Shown here in pieces: positions 25,677 through 34,249 of a stretch of 52,163 nucleotides of DNA (position 1 is its first letter; every line of letters begins with the position of its first letter). Location: assembly GCA_016930635.1 (NCBI GenBank), contig JAFGGI010000032.1, positions 1 to 52,163 of the forward strand, in the 5' to 3' direction. The notes under the pieces are model-generated. The model worked only from the letters and a program-made list of their open reading frames with translations, searched no databases and was not told the origin of the DNA. The position numbers and the translations under genes are program-made. The DNA is from Sedimentisphaerales bacterium. Lineage in GTDB: Bacteria > Planctomycetota > Phycisphaerae > Sedimentisphaerales > UBA12454.

Positions 25677-26357
25677 TTATTTTTTTGCTTTTGCTTTTCT
25701 CTTTGCACCAGCGTTTGTTTTTTTATCTGCCGTAATCTGTGCTGCTTTTGAGCTAACAAGCTCGCTGTCATGCCATAAAAAGGTGTAAAAAGCATATGCA
25801 TTTGCTGCAGAAATATATCTTTCGACAAAAGCGGTAATTTGCTCATTATCAAGTTTAGGATCAACTATCTTATGAGTTTTAAGATGCTCGATCATCTTTT
25901 CCGTTATTGGTACAGAATGAGCATTTATGATTGTCAACATAATGTAATTACTGACAAAACGTGTCATACCGTTAAGTTTTTCGAGGATTTCCCTGGCGGC
26001 TTTTTTTCTCGAGCTCATAAAATCCTCAAGCGAGAGACAGTCATACTTCTGGAAGATAGAGTTTAATATAGAGGTAAGTCTGGCGGCACATTTTTCTGCT
26101 TCTGTCACATCGCTTTTTATCACCTCGACGATCTCTTCAGTTCTTGCGACTCTCAGGTCGTTGAAATCTACAAAATGTGACTGGATTTTTTTTAAAGCAG
26201 ACCTTGTGCCGGACTCAGTTGAGTTTTCAGACAACACTGCAAAAACAATTGCCTCGACCGGGTCGTCATAAGCGGGCTTTTTAGGCTTGTCACTGCCTTT
26301 TTTTAAAATGCTGTAAAGTTTTTTCAACCTTTGGATATATTGGCTACTGCTCTTCAT
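25677..26357 (-). CDS. Endonuclease III-like protein, probably catalytically inactive
   Basis: This 226-residue protein (from ATG 26357) resembles the HhH-GPD fold of endonuclease III: 'DPVEAIVFAVLSENSTESGTRSALKKIQSHF' matches the first half, and 'EILEKLNGMTRFVSNYIMLTII' lies where the helix-hairpin-helix 'LPGVGRKTA' should be. The catalytic Lys of the hairpin is Phe and the catalytic Asp of the following 'VDTH' is replaced ('PITEK'). The C-terminal four-Cys iron-sulfur loop is missing; the tail is Lys/Ala-rich. It should therefore not cut DNA, though it may bind nucleic acid. The gene overlaps the rbfA 3' end by 14 bases and precedes hisG by 9. A longer reading from 26396 adds 13 Lys-rich residues. 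Confidence 0.65.
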   Translation of the reverse strand: MKSSSQYIQRLKKLYSILKKGSDKPKKPAYDDPVEAIVFAVLSENSTESGTRSALKKIQSHFVDFNDLRVARTEEIVEVIKSDVTEAEKCAARLTSILNSIFQKYDCLSLEDFMSSRKKAAREILEKLNGMTRFVSNYIMLTIINAHSVPITEKMIEHLKTHKIVDPKLDNEQITAFVERYISAANAYAFYTFLWHDSELVSSKAAQITADKKTNAGAKRKAKAKK

Positions 26358-26721
26358 TTTTTTCTTCTTCTGAAAATTCTTTTGAAACTTCTTCAATTAT
26401 CCTGAGCGTTTCCATGGTTTTTTTTAACCTGTCATCTATATGGAAAGACAGGTGCGGGCAAAATTTACTTTTAACATAATCACCAAGCAACGATTGAATA
26501 TGACCTGCAGCATGATTTATTGCATCAAAAGTCAGTTGTTGCTTTGCTTCGTTTTTACCCATAATGCTCAAAAAAACATCAGCTTTTTTCAGGTCTGGTT
26601 CAATTTTTACTTCTGTTATGCTGATAAAACCTTCGATTCGCGGATCCTGCAGATGATTATTAATTATATCACTAACCGCTTCTTTAACTACCCGCGACAT
26701 TTTGTCCTGTCTTCTTGACAT
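26344..26721 (-). CDS. rbfA: 30S ribosome-binding factor RbfA
   Basis: The 125-residue protein starts 'MSRRQDKMSRVVKEAVSDIINNHLQDPRIEGFISITEVKIEPDLKKADVFLSIMG', a clear RbfA KH-type sequence, with 'HAAGHIQSLLGDYVKSKFCPHLSFHIDDRLKKTMETLRIIEEV' completing the domain. It binds the 30S subunit during late assembly of 16S rRNA and is needed at low temperature in E. coli. The gene follows infB by 14 bases, the common nusA-infB-rbfA order. A highly acidic C-terminus ('EEEKNEEQ') overlaps the start of the next gene. Confidence 0.95.
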   Translation of the reverse strand: MSRRQDKMSRVVKEAVSDIINNHLQDPRIEGFISITEVKIEPDLKKADVFLSIMGKNEAKQQLTFDAINHAAGHIQSLLGDYVKSKFCPHLSFHIDDRLKKTMETLRIIEEVSKEFSEEEKNEEQ

Positions 26722-26735
26722 TTTACATCAATATT

Positions 26736-29366
26736 TTAAAGAGTTCTTTCAACTTTGACAATTTCGTAAACCTCAAAAACATCCTGTGTTTTCACATCGT
26801 CAAAGCCGGCAATTTTTATACCGCACTCAAAGCCGTTTTTAACTTGTCTTACGTCATCTTTGAAATGCTTAAGAGATTCTATCTGGCAATTGTCCTTGAC
26901 AATAATGTTATCCCGTATAAGCCTTATCCTTGAGTTCCTGTTGACTTCTCCCTGTTCTACATAACATCCTGCGATAGTTCCCACGCCGGAAACTTTAAAT
27001 GTATCCCGTACAACAGCTCTGCCGATGCTGTTAATCTGTTCTTCCGGTTCGAGCATTCCGACCATAGCCTTTCTTAGGTCTTCTGCTATTCTGTATATAA
27101 TATTATACAGTCTTATATCTATGCCTTTTTCTTCGGCGAGTTTAACAGCCTTGTCCTCAGGCACAACGTTAAAGCCTATAATTATTGCTCCCGATGCCTC
27201 GGCGAGCAGGGCGTCACCTTCTGTTATGCCGCCGACAGCAGCGTGCAGAATCTTTACCTGTACTTCATCAGTACTTATTTCCGTCAGATATTTAGTTAAT
27301 ACATCCACTGAACCCTGAACATCTGCACGAATTATGATATTAACCTCTTTTGCTTTACCTGCTTCTATCTGGCTAAACAGATTTTCCATTGTAATCTGTG
27401 ACCGTATACCCAGAGCAGCTTTCCTGGTGGTAGTTTTTTTCTCATCAGCGGCAGCCTTTGCACGATTGAGATCTGCCAGGCAGTAGAATTTATCTCCTGC
27501 CTGAGGGACATCATTTAAACCCGAAATTTCAACGGGCATAGCACTATCTGCCGAGCGGATAGATTTGCCGAGGCTGTCTCGCAGAGCTCTTATTCTGCCG
27601 TAACCTGTGCCTGCCAGAATAACATCACCTTTTTTGAGTATTCCTTCCTTTATAAGAATTGTTGCGACTGGGCCTTTTTTCGGACTTATTCTTGCCTCAA
27701 TAACCCATCCAGTAGCTGGTAATGTGGGATCTGCCTGGAGTTCGAGCAGTTCAGCTGCATAGTCAAGATGTTCAAGAAGTTCTTCAACCCCTTCTCCTGT
27801 TGTGGCACTGGTTTTAACGATATCCGTATTTCCTGACCATTCGACAGGAGTGAGCTCATGTTCGGCAAATTGACCATATATTCTGTTAAGATCGACTCCC
27901 GGCAAATCAATTTTATTCAATGCAATGATAATATGAACACCTGCAGCTTTTGCATGATGAATTGCTTCTATGGTCTGCGGCATTACACCGTCGTCAGCGG
28001 CAACAACAAGTACGACTATATCTGTCATATTTGCACCCCGTGCCCGCATTGCGGTAAAGGCTTCATGACCAGGCGTATCCAGGAAAGTAACTTTTTTCTG
28101 ATTATCTTTGTCGCCGAATATTACCTGTGATGCACCTATGTGCTGAGTAATTCCGCCGGCTTCACCCTTGACAACTGTTGTCGAGCGGATCTTATCAAGC
28201 AGGCTGGTTTTGCCATGGTCGACATGGCCGAGCATTGTAACTATTGCAGGCCGTTTTTGCATATTGTTCCTTGACCTGTTTTCAAATTCTTCTGCAATTT
28301 GTTCTTCGATAGATTTCTTATGCTGCACGATTAGTTCGGTGCCTAATTCAAGAGCAACAAGCTCAGCGACATCTGTGGGAATAGTTTGATTTGCATTTGC
28401 CATAACAGAGTGTTCGATGAGCTTTTCTATTATCTCAGTCGTTTTTACTGCTAAAGCAGCCGATAAGTCTTTGACAATTATCGGCTCGGAAATATATGCT
28501 TTTTCCGGCTTTATTTTAGTAGTTTCTTCAGCTTTAGACCTCTTAGTTTCAATTTTTCTGACAGGTCTTAGCCGCATACCTTCACCGCTGGCAGCACTGA
28601 GTCTTGCACGTCTCTCTTCGATATCTCTGCTTCGCAATTTGCGGCCTACCTTCTTATGTCGGTTAGGCTCCTCTTCTGCATAGTCTTCATGCTTTCTGCC
28701 GTGGGTTTTACTCTTACTTTTTCCGCCGTGTGGTCTGAGGTTCATTGTCTCAGGGGCACTTGCGAGAAGCGGCTCAGAGGCCTCCTTTAAATATGAGGGC
28801 TTTGAAGATTTTGTCTTTGGCCGTGGTCTTTCGATTTGTTCAGGTTCTTCAACTCGTATAACTCGCGGTCCGGATAGCTTTGCCGGTTTAGGCTTTTTCA
28901 GTTTTGGTCCTGCCGGTGCTACCGATTTAGGCGGTTTTGGAAGCTCTGGTTTTAGTTCTACTCTGGGCCTTGCCGGTTCAGTCTGTATCGGCTGTTCAAC
29001 TTGTTCTGTCTTGGGTTTTTCTGCAGTTTCCTCGACAGGCGGCTCAACAACGGCGGCTTTTACTTCTGCTTTATCATCTGCAGATACTTTACTTTTTTCT
29101 TTCTTGTCAGTTTTCTTTGGAGCAGCAGCATTTTTAGGTGTTTTTTTCTTTATACGAGCCTTCTTAAGATCGACGCGGGCCGTAGTTTCAACAGCTGTTA
29201 TATGCTCTCCTTCGCTGAACCATTCACGAATGGTGGCTGCCAGACCTGCTGAAATTGTTGACATGTGATTCTTTACATCAAGTCCTTCAGCCTGGCATTT
29301 ATCAAGAATAGACTTACTCTTGACACCAAGCTCTTTGGCTAAAAGATGGACTCGTGTAGTTGCCAA
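26736..29366 (-). CDS. infB: Translation initiation factor IF-2
   Basis: The 876-residue protein has an N-terminal IF2-N helix ('[35 protein letters not shown]'), a long Lys/Pro/Glu-rich linker (about residues 70-280), a second IF2-N segment ('[27 protein letters not shown]') and the GTPase core: G1 '[12 protein letters not shown]', 'GGITQHIGA', G3 'DTPGHEAF', G4 'NKID'. The beta-barrel domains and C-terminal fMet-tRNA-binding region follow. It places initiator tRNA on the 30S subunit. Length is normal for a long-linker form. The gap to nusA is 31 bases. Confidence 0.97.
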
Positions 29367-29397: not shown

Positions 29398-30627
29398 TTA
29401 CAGGTCCGCTTCTTCTGATTCTACTTCTTTGACCTGTTTGTCCATCATAGTTTCAGCTATAGTCGGTTCAGTTTCAGAGGTTTGTTTCTTAGCTGATTCT
29501 TCAGCAGCTTTTATGACTTTTGCGGCAATTTCCGGGTCCAGGCCTATTTCACTTATTAAAGGTTCTGTGCCGATTTCCGCAAGGTCAAGAACGCTTATTA
29601 TACCCAATGCGATAAGCTTATCGACGAAAGTGTCATCAATATCTTCTACATCTTTGATCGCGATGGATAGTCTTTCAACCTCCTGATTATATTCTTCGGG
29701 AGTGAGTATATCGATATCCCAGTCAGTCAGCCTGGCTGCCAGTCTTACATTCTGGCCGTGTTTTCCAATAGCCAAACTTAACTGGTCTTCAGGTACAACA
29801 ACGGTTGCACCGCCAAGTTCAAAGCAAAGTGCAACCTGGCTGCATTTTGCAGGCATCAGGGCATTTGCTATAAGCTCCTGTGAAGATTCGTTCCATCGGA
29901 CAATATCTATTTTTTCGCCACCGAGTTCATCAACTATATTTCTTATCCTGCTTCCGCGCACACCAACACATGCGCCGACTGCATCAACTTTGCTGTCATT
30001 GGACAGTACAGCTATCTTTGTTCTGTAGCCTGCTTCTCTTGCAAGAGCTTTTATTTCTATTATTTCCTCAGCTACTTCCGGAACTTCAAGTTCGAAAAGC
30101 CTTCTGATAAAGTCCGGATGTGTCCTGGAAAGTATTATCTTTACAACACTTGATGTCTCACGTACATCGAGGATAAGACATCTGATTCTTTCTGACGGAT
30201 GATGATTTTGACCGGTAATTTGCTCACTCTTCGGCAAAATCGCTTCGGTTCTGTTGCTTAGATTGACGATGACTGCTCCGCTTTCGTAGCGAACGACAAT
30301 TCCGCTGACTATTTCTCCTTTTCGTTCTACGAATTCATCGTATATACTCTGTCTCTCATCTGCTTTTATTTTTTGGATCATTACCTGCTTGGCGGTTTGT
30401 GCCGGGATTCTGCCAAGCTGCCTTATGTCGATTTGCTGACCGTCCTTAAAGGCGACTATAGCTCCGCTTGACCTGTCTATTCTTACCTCAATATCTGCAT
30501 CGGTTTTGCCGAAATACTTTCTGGCGGCTGATACCATTGCTGTTTCTAAGTCCAGAAAAATAGCCTCCCGGTCGATATTTTTATCGCGAGCGATGTTGTC
30601 AACTATTCTTATAAGCTCTTGGTTCAT
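29398..30627 (-). CDS. nusA: Transcription termination/antitermination factor NusA
   Basis: From ATG 30627 the product is 409 residues: N-terminal RNA-polymerase-binding domain ('MNQELIRIVDNIARDKNIDREAIFLDLETAMVSAARKYFG'), S1 domain (about 110-180, 'GEIVSGIVVRYESGAVIVNL'), tandem KH domains ('VDAVGACVGVRGSRIRNIVDELGGEKIDIVRW' and 'LSLAIGKHGQNVRLAARLTDWDIDI') and a short C-terminal helical repeat ('IDDTFVDKLIALGIISVLDLAEIG'). AAAGGTAAG lies just upstream of this ATG on the minus strand. The longer reading from 30702 would begin inside the leader terminator hairpin and is rejected. rimP, which often precedes nusA, is absent; a structured leader takes its place. Confidence 0.95.
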   Translation of the reverse strand: MNQELIRIVDNIARDKNIDREAIFLDLETAMVSAARKYFGKTDADIEVRIDRSSGAIVAFKDGQQIDIRQLGRIPAQTAKQVMIQKIKADERQSIYDEFVERKGEIVSGIVVRYESGAVIVNLSNRTEAILPKSEQITGQNHHPSERIRCLILDVRETSSVVKIILSRTHPDFIRRLFELEVPEVAEEIIEIKALAREAGYRTKIAVLSNDSKVDAVGACVGVRGSRIRNIVDELGGEKIDIVRWNESSQELIANALMPAKCSQVALCFELGGATVVVPEDQLSLAIGKHGQNVRLAARLTDWDIDILTPEEYNQEVERLSIAIKDVEDIDDTFVDKLIALGIISVLDLAEIGTEPLISEIGLDPEIAAKVIKAAEESAKKQTSETEPTIAETMMDKQVKEVESEEADL

Positions 30628-30658
30628 TATCTTACCTTTCGTTACAACAGTCTTGCGT

Positions 30659-30693
30659 AAAAAAATGGAAACACCTGTGTTCAGACGTTTCCA
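30659..30693 (-). terminator. Intrinsic terminator in the nusA leader
   Basis: On the minus strand TGGAAAC...GTTTCCA arms (30693-30687 and 30672-30666), extended inward by two G-U pairs and CTG/CAG to about 12 base pairs with an AACA loop, are followed by seven T (30665-30659). This is a strong Rho-independent terminator about 30 bases before the nusA start codon. It could work as an attenuator or end a small RNA. Confidence 0.8.
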
Positions 30694-30925
30694 CTTCGAC
30701 AAGCCTCAAAATTATCGCGGGCTACCATCCTACATAGGCACTCCTTCCGCGACAACCTTGTAAAAAGCCTTCGAAGCGAAAGCATCGGTGCACCGCATCA
30801 AGGAACCGAAGTCTCTGTGCGATCTACCAAAAGATGTAGCCACTCGGCTACGCACGGCTGTAAAATCCTGTACAAAACATTGCTATGCCTTTTTCTTGTT
30901 CTTTTAAACTTAAAAACAGGTTTAG
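30659..30925 (-). ncRNA. Structured 5' leader / possible small RNA upstream of nusA
   Basis: A consensus promoter at 30932-30959 and the terminator at 30659-30693 bound a 260-nt minus-strand transcript with no coding potential I can support. Seen pairings on the minus strand: GTGCG/CGCAC (30855-30851 with 30821-30817) enclosing two hairpins, TAGCC-GAGT-GGCTA and ATCT...AGAT, thus a three-way junction; and TTGTCGCGG/CCGCGATAA (30755-30747 with 30720-30712) enclosing 26 bases. The 5' end (AAACCTGTTTTT) can pair with the 3' half of the terminator stem, a possible antiterminator. I recognise no known class: it lacks RNase P, tmRNA and SRP signatures. Confidence 0.6.
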
Positions 30926-30931
30926 CAAAGA

Positions 30932-30959
30932 ATTATACAATACCCCCCGTTTTTGTCAA
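30932..30959 (-). promoter_or_regulatory. Consensus promoter of the nusA operon
   Basis: On the minus strand TTGACA (30959-30954) and TATAAT (30937-30932) are exact sigma-70 consensus hexamers with a 16-base spacer. The predicted start near 30925 gives a leader of about 300 nt before nusA. Confidence 0.85.
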
Positions 30960-31084
30960 ATAATTAACGATGTATTTTTGTCTGATGTGGCGGATAAATA
31001 GTGCATTATTTGGATTGATAATAACCCAAACAAACGATTTTTAGACAAAATATGTTAAAATAGGTAAAACAAGAGGTGACATAT

Positions 31085-31513
31085 CTATTTGATTGTGATA
31101 TTTTGTTTTATTGTTGAGATTTCCAAATCGGTTGCATTGCTCCTGGCGGCGGCGGCAAGAACAAGCCCAGCATCGCGGAATTTTATCGCTTTATCTACTC
31201 GCAGCCGCAGTGTCGTCATGTTTTTTTCGATAGTTTCTTTGTTAATATACAAAACGAGCCAATCGATGATATCACTTGGCTGCACGAAGGGACATTTTTC
31301 TGAACCTACTGCAAAGATTATTTTCTCGTTTGACTCATCAGGAAAAACACTGACAGTTGCAGGGGATTTTTCATCTTTGTTGTTGCCTGCGTATGTGCAA
31401 TCTGTCGGCACATCAAGCTGGAAATTCTCCGCATCGATCCTTTGATATACAATCACCAGGAATATGATTAGCAGTAAAACGATATCAATTATGCCGGTCA
31501 GATTAAGTTTCAT
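31085..31513 (-). CDS. ExbD/TolR family biopolymer transport protein
   Basis: This 142-residue protein has one N-terminal helix 'NLTGIIDIVLLLIIFLVIVYQRI' with D10 in the position of the proton-conducting Asp of ExbD/TolR/MotB, then a periplasmic domain of about 110 residues. The cytosolic stub is unusually short (residues 1-5). It overlaps the TolQ/ExbB-like gene by 11 bases and is the last gene of a VWA-TolQ-TolR set, so it is the energising partner of that channel protein. Confidence 0.85.
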   Translation of the reverse strand: MKLNLTGIIDIVLLLIIFLVIVYQRIDAENFQLDVPTDCTYAGNNKDEKSPATVSVFPDESNEKIIFAVGSEKCPFVQPSDIIDWLVLYINKETIEKNMTTLRLRVDKAIKFRDAGLVLAAAARSNATDLEISTIKQNITIK

Positions 31514-32306
31514 AGATTTTTTCTTTAGGGTTCGAGACAGGATTTTCTTCTATAGAATCCTTTATTTCGACGAGAATCATTTCGGCCTGGATCGCTGCTT
31601 CCTGTGCGATGGATTCTATTTTATTACTGAATATACTGTGAACCACAAGTGCCGGTATCGCGATAAGCAATCCCCAGAAAGTCGTGACCAGTGCGACACT
31701 GATACCGTCAGCCATCTGTTCGGGCCTGGGTTGGCCGGAAGCTAAAACGATCGTATTAAAGAGTTTTATCATTCCGTAAACGGTTCCGAAAAGTCCTATC
31801 ATAGGTGAGACGTTGCCGATAATATTGAGCCATTCGATTTTTCGCATCAATGCCCTGTATTGCTGTTTAATAACATCTGAGATGGTATTCTGCATTTGAA
31901 GCTGTACCTGTATCTGTCTCCTGTCAGCAGGCTGATTTCGAATAGCTGCATAAATAGCGCAGCTTACTAAATCGTTTTTCTCAGGAAGAATCTCCAGCAG
32001 TTTTTGCCAGCCTTGGTTTCTTATGGTTTTTATGATATCTGTACCGGAATTAGCAGGCAGAAGAACAGATGCTCTCAGGCTCTTTGTATAGTTGATCGTC
32101 AGTCCGATCGTTATTATTGACAGAGGCAAAAGAATAAACCATACAATAGCGCCGCCGGAGATTACGAACTGTGTAAAAAATGTTCTTTGTCCCTGTTCGT
32201 TGTTTTGGCCGGCAGCTGAAAAGACGATAATACATACAGTTACAAGAACAGCTGCAAGTATTACTATTTTTATCAGATTTTTTCTAAAGTCTAATGTCAT
32301 ATTCAT
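31503..32306 (-). CDS. MotA/TolQ/ExbB proton channel family protein
   Basis: The 267-residue protein has an N-terminal helix ('LIKIVILAAVLVTVCIIVFSA'), a second near residues 45-70 and the family core 'RALMRKIEWLNIIGNVSPMIGLFGTVYGMIKLFNTI...ADGISVALVTTFWGLLIAIPALVVHSIFSNKIE'. The 'IGLFGTVYGMI' and 'ALVTTFWGLLIAIPAL' phrases are diagnostic. With the ExbD-like protein it should form a proton-driven motor. Its start overlaps the VWA gene stop by 4 bases, showing tight coupling. Confidence 0.9.
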   Translation of the reverse strand: MNMTLDFRKNLIKIVILAAVLVTVCIIVFSAAGQNNEQGQRTFFTQFVISGGAIVWFILLPLSIITIGLTINYTKSLRASVLLPANSGTDIIKTIRNQGWQKLLEILPEKNDLVSCAIYAAIRNQPADRRQIQVQLQMQNTISDVIKQQYRALMRKIEWLNIIGNVSPMIGLFGTVYGMIKLFNTIVLASGQPRPEQMADGISVALVTTFWGLLIAIPALVVHSIFSNKIESIAQEAAIQAEMILVEIKDSIEENPVSNPKEKIYET

Positions 32307-33193
32307 TTGTTAATTAATGTAAAACTGCCGCCGGTTGCCTGAGCCAGTTGCCTAAGTATAAACTCATCCTGTGCTTTTGGCCAGAACCCAATAGTATTTA
32401 TTCTTGTTGTATCGCAAAAATTGTTTCTGAAATTAATTACATCTGCCAGCAGATTATCATCCCCATTTTCTGCCAGGTTAAAGCCGTCTGTTAAAAAATA
32501 GATAACATCCGGACTGTTAGCGGCAAGGTCTTTACTCATCATCGCAATTGTCAATGCCTGGACGGCATTTGTTCGGCCTTTAGGACGTATTTTATGGACA
32601 AATCCGATTGCTTGCTGTTTTACAGGTCCCGATGCCCGCACCAGACCTGTCTGGCTGAATTTATAAAGCTGATTATCACCGAAGAAAACGATCTGGAAAT
32701 ACCTGTCCGGTTCAAGAGAACCGATTGAATTTATAAGTTGAGCTTTGACCCTTTCAAATACACCCTGCATACTGCCTGAACAGTCCACTACAAAACAAAA
32801 CCGTTTTTCGCTTAAACTGTTTTCAAAAAACCGGGCCGTTTGTTCCTCTGCAGGATACATGCTCAAATTTTCACTCGGCAGTGACTCGATAAGGTCGGCT
32901 TCGATTGATGCGCCGAATATGGGTTTTGGAGTTTGGTCAAGTTCAAACTGAGGCCTTTTGCCGATTTGACCTGTTTGCGAACTGATAACTTTTGGCTTCG
33001 GAAGTATTTGTGCCTTATCGGCAAGATTGCTGACTGCTTTAATCCTTGCCGTTGCTGCTTTTGCCGTGCTGACGGGTACCTGTTTTGCTGAAAAACTTAC
33101 GAAAGCAAGTAGAGATAAAATAACTGCGTGCAATATTAATGAAATAATAAACGAATTGGTTACGGTTTTTTTGTCCGAATTTACATGATTCAT
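32303..33193 (-). CDS. Membrane-anchored von Willebrand factor A domain protein
   Basis: The 296-residue protein has one N-terminal helix ('FIISLILHAVILSLLAFVSF', about residues 14-33), a proline/lysine-containing linker to about residue 125, then a VWA domain. The metal-site motif 'VVDCSGSMQG' (D-x-S-x-S), the Thr in 'GRTNAVQAL' and the Asp in 'FLTDGF' complete the MIDAS set. The Lys/Pro-rich linker after a single N-terminal anchor is reminiscent of TonB, and the gene is coupled to TolQ/ExbB- and TolR/ExbD-like genes. I infer a periplasmic VWA protein driven by or attached to the proton channel. The promoter is probably further upstream, since ldt ends only 42 bp away. Confidence 0.8.
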   Translation of the reverse strand: MNHVNSDKKTVTNSFIISLILHAVILSLLAFVSFSAKQVPVSTAKAATARIKAVSNLADKAQILPKPKVISSQTGQIGKRPQFELDQTPKPIFGASIEADLIESLPSENLSMYPAEEQTARFFENSLSEKRFCFVVDCSGSMQGVFERVKAQLINSIGSLEPDRYFQIVFFGDNQLYKFSQTGLVRASGPVKQQAIGFVHKIRPKGRTNAVQALTIAMMSKDLAANSPDVIYFLTDGFNLAENGDDNLLADVINFRNNFCDTTRINTIGFWPKAQDEFILRQLAQATGGSFTLINK

Positions 33194-33235
33194 TTTCAGC
33201 TTAATGCTTTATAAAATAAACGCCGCTGTCACCTG

Positions 33236-34249
33236 TCAATCCACAACCCGCAGTTCTGAATGACCAGGCTCGAACATATCATACAGCTCTACTAATTCTC
33301 CGTTATACAGCCGGATGCATCCGCGGGAGCTTTTTGTCCCGATAGTCGATTCATCTTTTGTGCCGTGAAATGCTATTCCTGTGATGCTGCGGGTTCTGTT
33401 GTCGATACCTTCCAGTTCTATCCAGCCCGAGCCAAGCGGATAATCCGGGTCATTTGCGTGATATGTCTTTCCTGTTTCCGGGTCCGTCCATGTAGGCTTA
33501 ATAAGTTTGCCGCCGACTTTTGCCCGCCACAGCCCAGGCGGTGTCTCATATCCTTCTTTGCCGAGCCCTACTTTGTAAGTTTTTACATATGTATTTTGCA
33601 GGTAAAGGTCCATCATGAAAGATGAGCGATAGACAATAGCGTAAAACGGCCCATTTACAGTTTTTATTACCTGTCCTGCCCGCAGGGATTTTTCACTCTG
33701 AATATTGTTTATTCTCATCAGGAACTGGTAAGGCACCTTATATTTTTTGGCGATGTTTGACAGCATATCGCCTGGCTGGACCTTATATGTGGAGCAGAGA
33801 TTATCGCCGAAATAAACCGTTCTGCCAAAAAGCCACTTATCAGCCAAACTTGCCATCTGAGCTTTAACCTGCTCTCTAAGAGCCGTATCCATTCCCATAT
33901 TAATGGCTTCGTTAAGAGTGTCTCTGGCTGCAATGATTTTGTCCTCATCAATTGATTTTTGGGCATCCTGTAAAAATGCCAGCACCCTCGAGCCTGTCAG
34001 GCCGTTAGCCTCGGCTACAATATGCCTCAAGTCAGTGGCTTTCTTTATTTGCTCCTTCTCTGCGATATCTTCTGCTTCTATCTGCAAAGGCTGAGTTTCA
34101 ACTGACTCCTGCGCAGGTTCGGCCTTGTCTTCTGAAGGAGAATAGAAAAATAATACTGCCCCTATAACTACAATAACTGCTGCAATTGTATAATAAATGG
34201 CCGTCTTTCTTCTGCGCGACCTGTAACTGCCATACGATGACATTGCCAT
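33236..34249 (-). CDS. LysM domain L,D-transpeptidase
   Basis: The 337-residue protein has an Arg-rich cytosolic start, one anchor ('IYYTIAAVIVVIGAVLFFYS'), an acidic linker with a helical repeat-like part, a LysM domain ('YKVQPGDMLSNIAKKYKVPYQFLMRINNIQSEKSLRAGQVI', about residues 150-195) and a C-terminal YkuD domain. The YkuD catalytic set is complete: 'IAFHGTKD' and 'SSRGCIRLYNGE' with the nucleophile Cys. It should bind peptidoglycan and make 3-3 cross-links or attach proteins. It sits between the cyclo-ligase and the VWA gene on the same strand; together with dapF it shows that the cell has diaminopimelate-type peptidoglycan. Confidence 0.92.
   Translation of the reverse strand: MAMSSYGSYRSRRRKTAIYYTIAAVIVVIGAVLFFYSPSEDKAEPAQESVETQPLQIEAEDIAEKEQIKKATDLRHIVAEANGLTGSRVLAFLQDAQKSIDEDKIIAARDTLNEAINMGMDTALREQVKAQMASLADKWLFGRTVYFGDNLCSTYKVQPGDMLSNIAKKYKVPYQFLMRINNIQSEKSLRAGQVIKTVNGPFYAIVYRSSFMMDLYLQNTYVKTYKVGLGKEGYETPPGLWRAKVGGKLIKPTWTDPETGKTYHANDPDYPLGSGWIELEGIDNRTRSITGIAFHGTKDESTIGTKSSRGCIRLYNGELVELYDMFEPGHSELRVVD

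Follow-up and report, generated by a model that had tools for sequence, protein, structure and literature searches.

A candidate ribosome-read terminator switch with a start-stop mini-ORF in the nusA leader of Phycisphaerae

NusA and translation initiation factor IF2 are produced from one nearly universal operon, and how their levels are set is poorly understood outside E. coli. This question is raised by a locus of a Sedimentisphaerales bacterium, in which the window (the whole stretch of DNA analysed, 52,163 nt) carries an operon in the order nusA-infB-rbfA behind a leader transcribed leftwards from the minus strand. The leader extends ~265 nt from its promoter to an intrinsic terminator, and a further 31 nt lead to the nusA start codon at 30627 (Table 1). 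As judged by comparison with related sequences, the leader is a putative terminator/antiterminator switch with two leader ORFs. A preliminary description had proposed a structured leader with an attenuator before nusA, which is backed here by its conservation, by complementary strands and by limited compensatory change. Neither the two ORFs nor the antiterminator strand figured in that description. Upstream of the leader, ExbD/TolR-like, MotA/TolQ/ExbB-like and LysM-L,D-transpeptidase-like genes lie on the same strand (31085-34249).

Table 1. Features of the nusA leader and operon, with positions in the window
Feature	Position	Strand	Basis
Promoter TTGACA (30959-30954), 16 nt, TATAAT (30937-30932)	30932-30959	-	12/12 consensus match, sigma-70-type
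Transcription start, predicted	near 30925	-	promoter position
ORF1 Shine-Dalgarno AAGG	30888-30891	-	sequence
ORF1 MFCTGFYSRA*	30848-30880	-	comparison of SD+ATG ORFs across leaders
Branched element at ORF1 stop: GUGCG:CGCAC (30855-30851 with 30821-30817) and hairpin GUAGCC-GAGU-GGCUAC (30851-30836)	30817-30855	-	sequence and folding
Antiterminator strand GCUUUCGCUUCGA	30771-30783	-	complementary to terminator 5' arm; p = 0.01 in the window
Long stem UUGUCGCGG:CCGCGAUAA, mini-ORF between its strands	30712-30755	-	folding; shuffle p = 0.005 in the window
Mini-ORF Shine-Dalgarno AAGGAG	30741-30746	-	comparison across leaders
Minimal ORF AUG-UAG (start-stop)	30730-30735	-	comparison of SD, AUG and early stop
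Terminator: 5' arm UCGAAGUGGAAACG (30699-30686, shared with antiterminator), hairpin 30694-30666, U-tract 30665-30659 (seven U)	30659-30699	-	sequence and comparison
nusA	29398-30627	-	TIGR01953, E = 8.7e-102
infB (translation initiation factor IF2)	26736-29366	-	TIGR00487, E = 1.5e-211
rbfA-like ORF directly 3' of infB	26344-26721	-	sequence and gene order

Promoter, terminator and pairing elements

The comparison covered 167 distinct leaders, defined as the regions upstream of NusA homologues and taken mostly from metagenome assemblies, so that the counts given below are not phylogenetically independent. The named relatives found through NusA belong mostly to the Phycisphaerae, many of them labelled Sedimentisphaerales. 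Whole-leader alignment with MAFFT and RNAalifold across families yielded only the antiterminator helix or the terminator helix because the families are too divergent, and anchored and permutation tests were used in its place.

The promoter, described before as perfect, matches the consensus at every hexamer position and is kept in 12/12 members of the window's family. A DNA search of 98 related genomes recovered a single copy of the leader in its own genome and homologues in three further genomes from the family (~70% identity), likewise preceding nusA, as the leader does in every genome examined. The predicted folding energy of -89 kcal/mol, compared with -73.4 kcal/mol for shuffled sequences (z = -3.0), indicates a structured RNA. 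A strong promoter and terminator with such an RNA between them would also suit a mostly constitutive terminator that releases a ~265-nt small RNA acting elsewhere, nusA being expressed by leak-through. This is highly improbable in view of the invariable position before nusA and the single genomic copy, nor would a trans-acting RNA be expected to show antiterminator pairing or to carry two ORFs.

The strong terminator reported about 30 bases before nusA is confirmed as a stem followed by seven U, and a terminator was located in 155/167 leaders, mostly with the arm AAGUGG[AG]. In L011 and L021 (HGW-Planctomycetes-1), the leader terminator and nusA are separated by an inserted small ORF that by eye resembles GIY-YIG (MNPVRPRWFYTYYLKCVKDETFYTGCTNDLRKRLKEH...) and has inverted-repeat-like ends (CCCGTTAGACC / GGTCTAACGGG).

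The antiterminator strand is complementary to the terminator 5' arm over ~13 nt. In family f1, which includes the window, and in family f7, the strand GUUUCUGCUUCAG upstream of the mini-ORF is complementary to the arm CUGAAGUGGAAAC, the window having GCUUUCGCUUCGA against UCGAAGUGGAAAC. Each of nine core positions is paired in at least 67 and up to all 72 of the 72 leaders compared (67-72), and cognate duplexes average -14.5 kcal/mol as compared with -12.8 kcal/mol for permuted ones, with 0/2000 permutations as good, a figure inflated by relatedness. Family f6 carries the terminator loop CCUGAAG, whose exact complement CUUCAGG occurs upstream in 19/21 of its leaders and in 7/129 of the others, and in L193 of this family both sides have changed in a compensatory manner (AUUCAGG / CCUGAAU). 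The earlier suggestion of a covariation check in related nusA upstream regions is partly answered by the antiterminator complementarity and this compensatory pair. Because f6 pairs with the terminator loop instead of the 5' arm, what is conserved would be the ability to pair with the terminator, whichever part of it is the target. For the distant leaders with M-R-type mini-ORFs, no antiterminator was identified by complementarity to the terminator.

A different pairing, between the 5' end and the 3' half of the terminator, had been put forward before. It is possible in the window (-8.9 kcal/mol) but is not conserved, with family cognate pairs at -4.61 kcal/mol and permuted pairs at -4.48 kcal/mol. 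The accompanying proposal that NusA senses its own level through this pairing is consequently unsupported as stated, whereas the antiterminator strand and the two ORFs with Shine-Dalgarno (SD) sequences are conserved. NusA may nevertheless contribute to pausing or to termination.

The long stem and the branched element of the preliminary description are both present. The antiterminator strands enclose the long stem, with the SD and mini-ORF near its tip, and the stem is significant (p<=0.05, shuffle test) in 35/65 leaders; in leaders with mini-ORFs of two or three codons, a flanking stem is unsupported by permutation. Terminator and antiterminator are predicted to be mutually exclusive. In ensemble folding their means are 0.52 and 0.45, respectively, and this near-even modelled balance is as would be expected of a switch. 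Leaders of f7 (e.g. L033, L150, L169, L190) contain variable extra hairpins, which separate either the antiterminator from the mini-ORF or the long stem from the terminator and leave the core undisturbed.

Two conserved leader ORFs

The lengths of SD-preceded ATG ORFs in all leaders form two peaks only, at 1-3 and 10-13 codons, while the shuffled background is flat. The longer class corresponds to ORF1, represented in relatives by an SD and 10-13 codons (e.g. MVLTGLANSAK*, MVQIGKVSRAFA*, MIFIGIYSRV*); 105/149 leaders have an SD-preceded ATG ORF of 8-14 codons at this place, where 23.8 would be expected. The geometry is conserved, with median spacings of 67 nt from the ORF1 stop to the antiterminator, 51 nt from there to the mini-ORF AUG and 52 nt from the AUG to the terminator arm. 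Neither a regulatory codon run nor a recognised arrest sequence was found in ORF1, and pN/pS of 0.78-0.84, similar to the 0.65-1.22 of other frames, lends no support to an arrest peptide selected for its amino acids.

Among more distant Phycisphaerae, a gene for an ABC ATPase of the MalK/UgpC type (ABC_tran, OB_MalK, TOBE_2) frequently fills the ORF1 slot with its 3' end, and M-R-* is a frequent form of the mini-ORF. In L046, L047, L053, L083, L095, L098 and others, such a gene adjoins the nusA leader, its final codons standing where ORF1 would be; several of these ATPases share a similar C-terminus, S-A-[AN]. One may speculate that the free leader ORF began as the tail of a gene lying upstream.

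The mini-ORF, comprising an SD, an AUG, 0-3 codons and a stop within 150 nt of the terminator, is found in 110/128 leaders and in 6.9% of shuffles. Pure start-stops occur in 67 leaders (51 AUGUAG, 13 AUGUAA, 3 AUGUGA), the remaining mini-ORFs encoding M-R, M-A-D, M-K-K-G, M-S-D and others. At the mini-ORF position, strong SD+ATG sites meet a stop within four codons in 131/149 cases, where ~17% would be expected if stops made up 3 of 64 codons. Because an SD with a start-stop is not rare by itself, the 52-kb window containing three more of them, the case for the mini-ORF rests on its conservation. Outside the order, it is present in 15/49 leaders, with 4.8 expected. The nusA leaders L217, L219, L226, L227, L228 and L229, from other classes of the phylum, have an SD with a start-stop AUGUAG or AUGUAA followed by a GUGGG terminator. 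In L019 and L198, the slot retains its SD and has AUA in place of AUG (GGCUAUAAG; UUAUAGAGUAA), which may represent loss or a non-AUG start.

The AUG-stop could instead be an RNA sequence or structure motif whose likeness to an ORF is incidental. The predominance of UAG among the start-stops (51/67) fits such a motif, as does one f7 subgroup in which UGUAGU can pair with a downstream ACUACA. Translation is favoured because divergent lineages, with mini-ORFs as unlike in sequence as M-R and M-K-K-G, keep SD, AUG and early stop; beyond the order, too, start-stops appear in some leaders of nusA, and the motif explanation is accordingly given very little weight.

Relation to known leaders and minimal ORFs

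The absence of a recognisable RNA class, as stated in the preliminary description, is borne out by Rfam searches, which gave only chance hits at gathering and permissive thresholds. The window contains no tRNA or tmRNA. The covariance model of the rimP leader, RF01770, had no match at its gathering score in the window or 12 related loci, while the positive control, the E. coli rimP leader, matched at 102 bits. In that E. coli leader no start-stop was seen by eye.

The rimP leader is a known attenuator of the nusA-infB operon in other bacteria, with a conserved GGGc...gCCC terminator (Naville and Gautheret 2010, PMC2965389). Both leaders combine a position before the nusA-infB operon with a conserved terminator having a G-rich 5' arm and a C-rich 3' arm; distant members and other classes have GUGGG...CCCAC, and the window has GUGGAAAC. 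They differ in that nusA lies directly downstream here, without rimP between, and in the two ORFs and clear antiterminator. The present leader is a functional counterpart of the rimP leader, yet fails RF01770.

For the rimP leader, no antiterminator was visible in most species and NusA was suggested as the binder (PMC2965389). By analogy, NusA or another RNA-binding protein might bind the present leader and set termination directly, the ORFs merely tuning ribosome traffic or RNA stability. In its 5' arm, AAGUGG, the terminator is kept in sequence beyond what pairing alone would demand, and GUGGG terminators before nusA are common across the phylum, also outside the order, in line with such a protein. 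In f1 and f7, however, antiterminator pairing also explains the conserved arm, and direct binding leaves the conserved mini-ORF and ORF1 unexplained, which makes it an unlikely account of the leader.

Judged by its sequence, the present leader would work like a leader-ORF attenuator. With ribosome-mediated attenuators of the trp/his type and antibiotic-sensing ones, e.g. bmrC (PMC4191407), it shares, at the sequence level, a leader ORF with an SD and a competing antiterminator and terminator. It differs in having no regulatory codon run or recognised arrest sequence, in its second, minimal ORF inside the antiterminator hairpin, and in its target, the transcription/translation machinery.

Minimal ORFs with an SD that act in cis near a regulated gene are shared with bacterial minigenes, such as those of lambda bar. 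The two-codon ORF of axe-txe (PMC8708949) acts on translation or mRNA stability, whereas the present mini-ORF lies inside a terminator switch, is often a start-stop and is conserved class-wide. A leader start-stop serving as a regulatory site for ribosomes has a parallel, unrelated by descent, in the eukaryotic AUGUAA of plant NIP5;1, where it is boron-dependent and involves mRNA decay (PMC11915504). In a literature search missing most subscription journals, no paper was found that describes a bacterial terminator switch with a start-stop ORF within it, or that treats nusA leaders of Planctomycetes, and initiation itself was not found described as an attenuator input.

Proposed control by translation initiation

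The conserved ORFs with their SDs point to ribosomes as the probable sensor, and control of the switch by ribosomes, i.e. ribosome-mediated transcription attenuation, is considered moderately likely. A ribosome or initiation complex on the mini-ORF (and ORF1) during transcription of the leader would select the structure formed and thereby set the output of nusA-infB-rbfA. Since a start-stop ORF has no elongation phase, occupancy of the mini-ORF would depend on two events only, initiation (30S, fMet-tRNA, IF2) and the release that takes place at the start codon, and these alone would be reported by the element.

Computed equilibrium folds lend this proposal no clear support. With a normal-size ribosome footprint on the mini-ORF, the antiterminator fraction goes from 0.42 to 0.42, and occupancy of this extent was rejected as a shifter of equilibrium folds. 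A wide footprint (-28..+29) tilts the folds toward the terminator, with 18 up and 4 down of 43. The tilt is about as large when the segment separating ORF1 from the antiterminator is blocked instead.

The most economical scheme for the ribosome-read switch would be negative feedback, in which the mini-ORF is loaded when initiation is efficient, so that the antiterminator stem is hindered and termination favoured, while at low IF2 initiation is weak, the stem stays free and read-through results. This direction of feedback is tentative, with the link to IF2 drawn from gene content. The infC gene of E. coli, autoregulated through its AUU start codon, offers a comparison, as there too an initiation factor gene is governed by an initiation event for which the factor itself matters; infC control is, however, translational, located at the gene's own start codon and without an attenuator.

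The start-stop mini-ORF may possibly, if still doubtfully, be a direct gauge of translation initiation within an attenuator, feeding IF2 and initiation capacity back on nusA-infB-rbfA across the Phycisphaerae as a class and in parts of further classes of Planctomycetota. The model yields exact, single-codon predictions. If it is true, a conserved ORF free of elongation, placed in a terminator switch, would act as a sensor of initiation itself.
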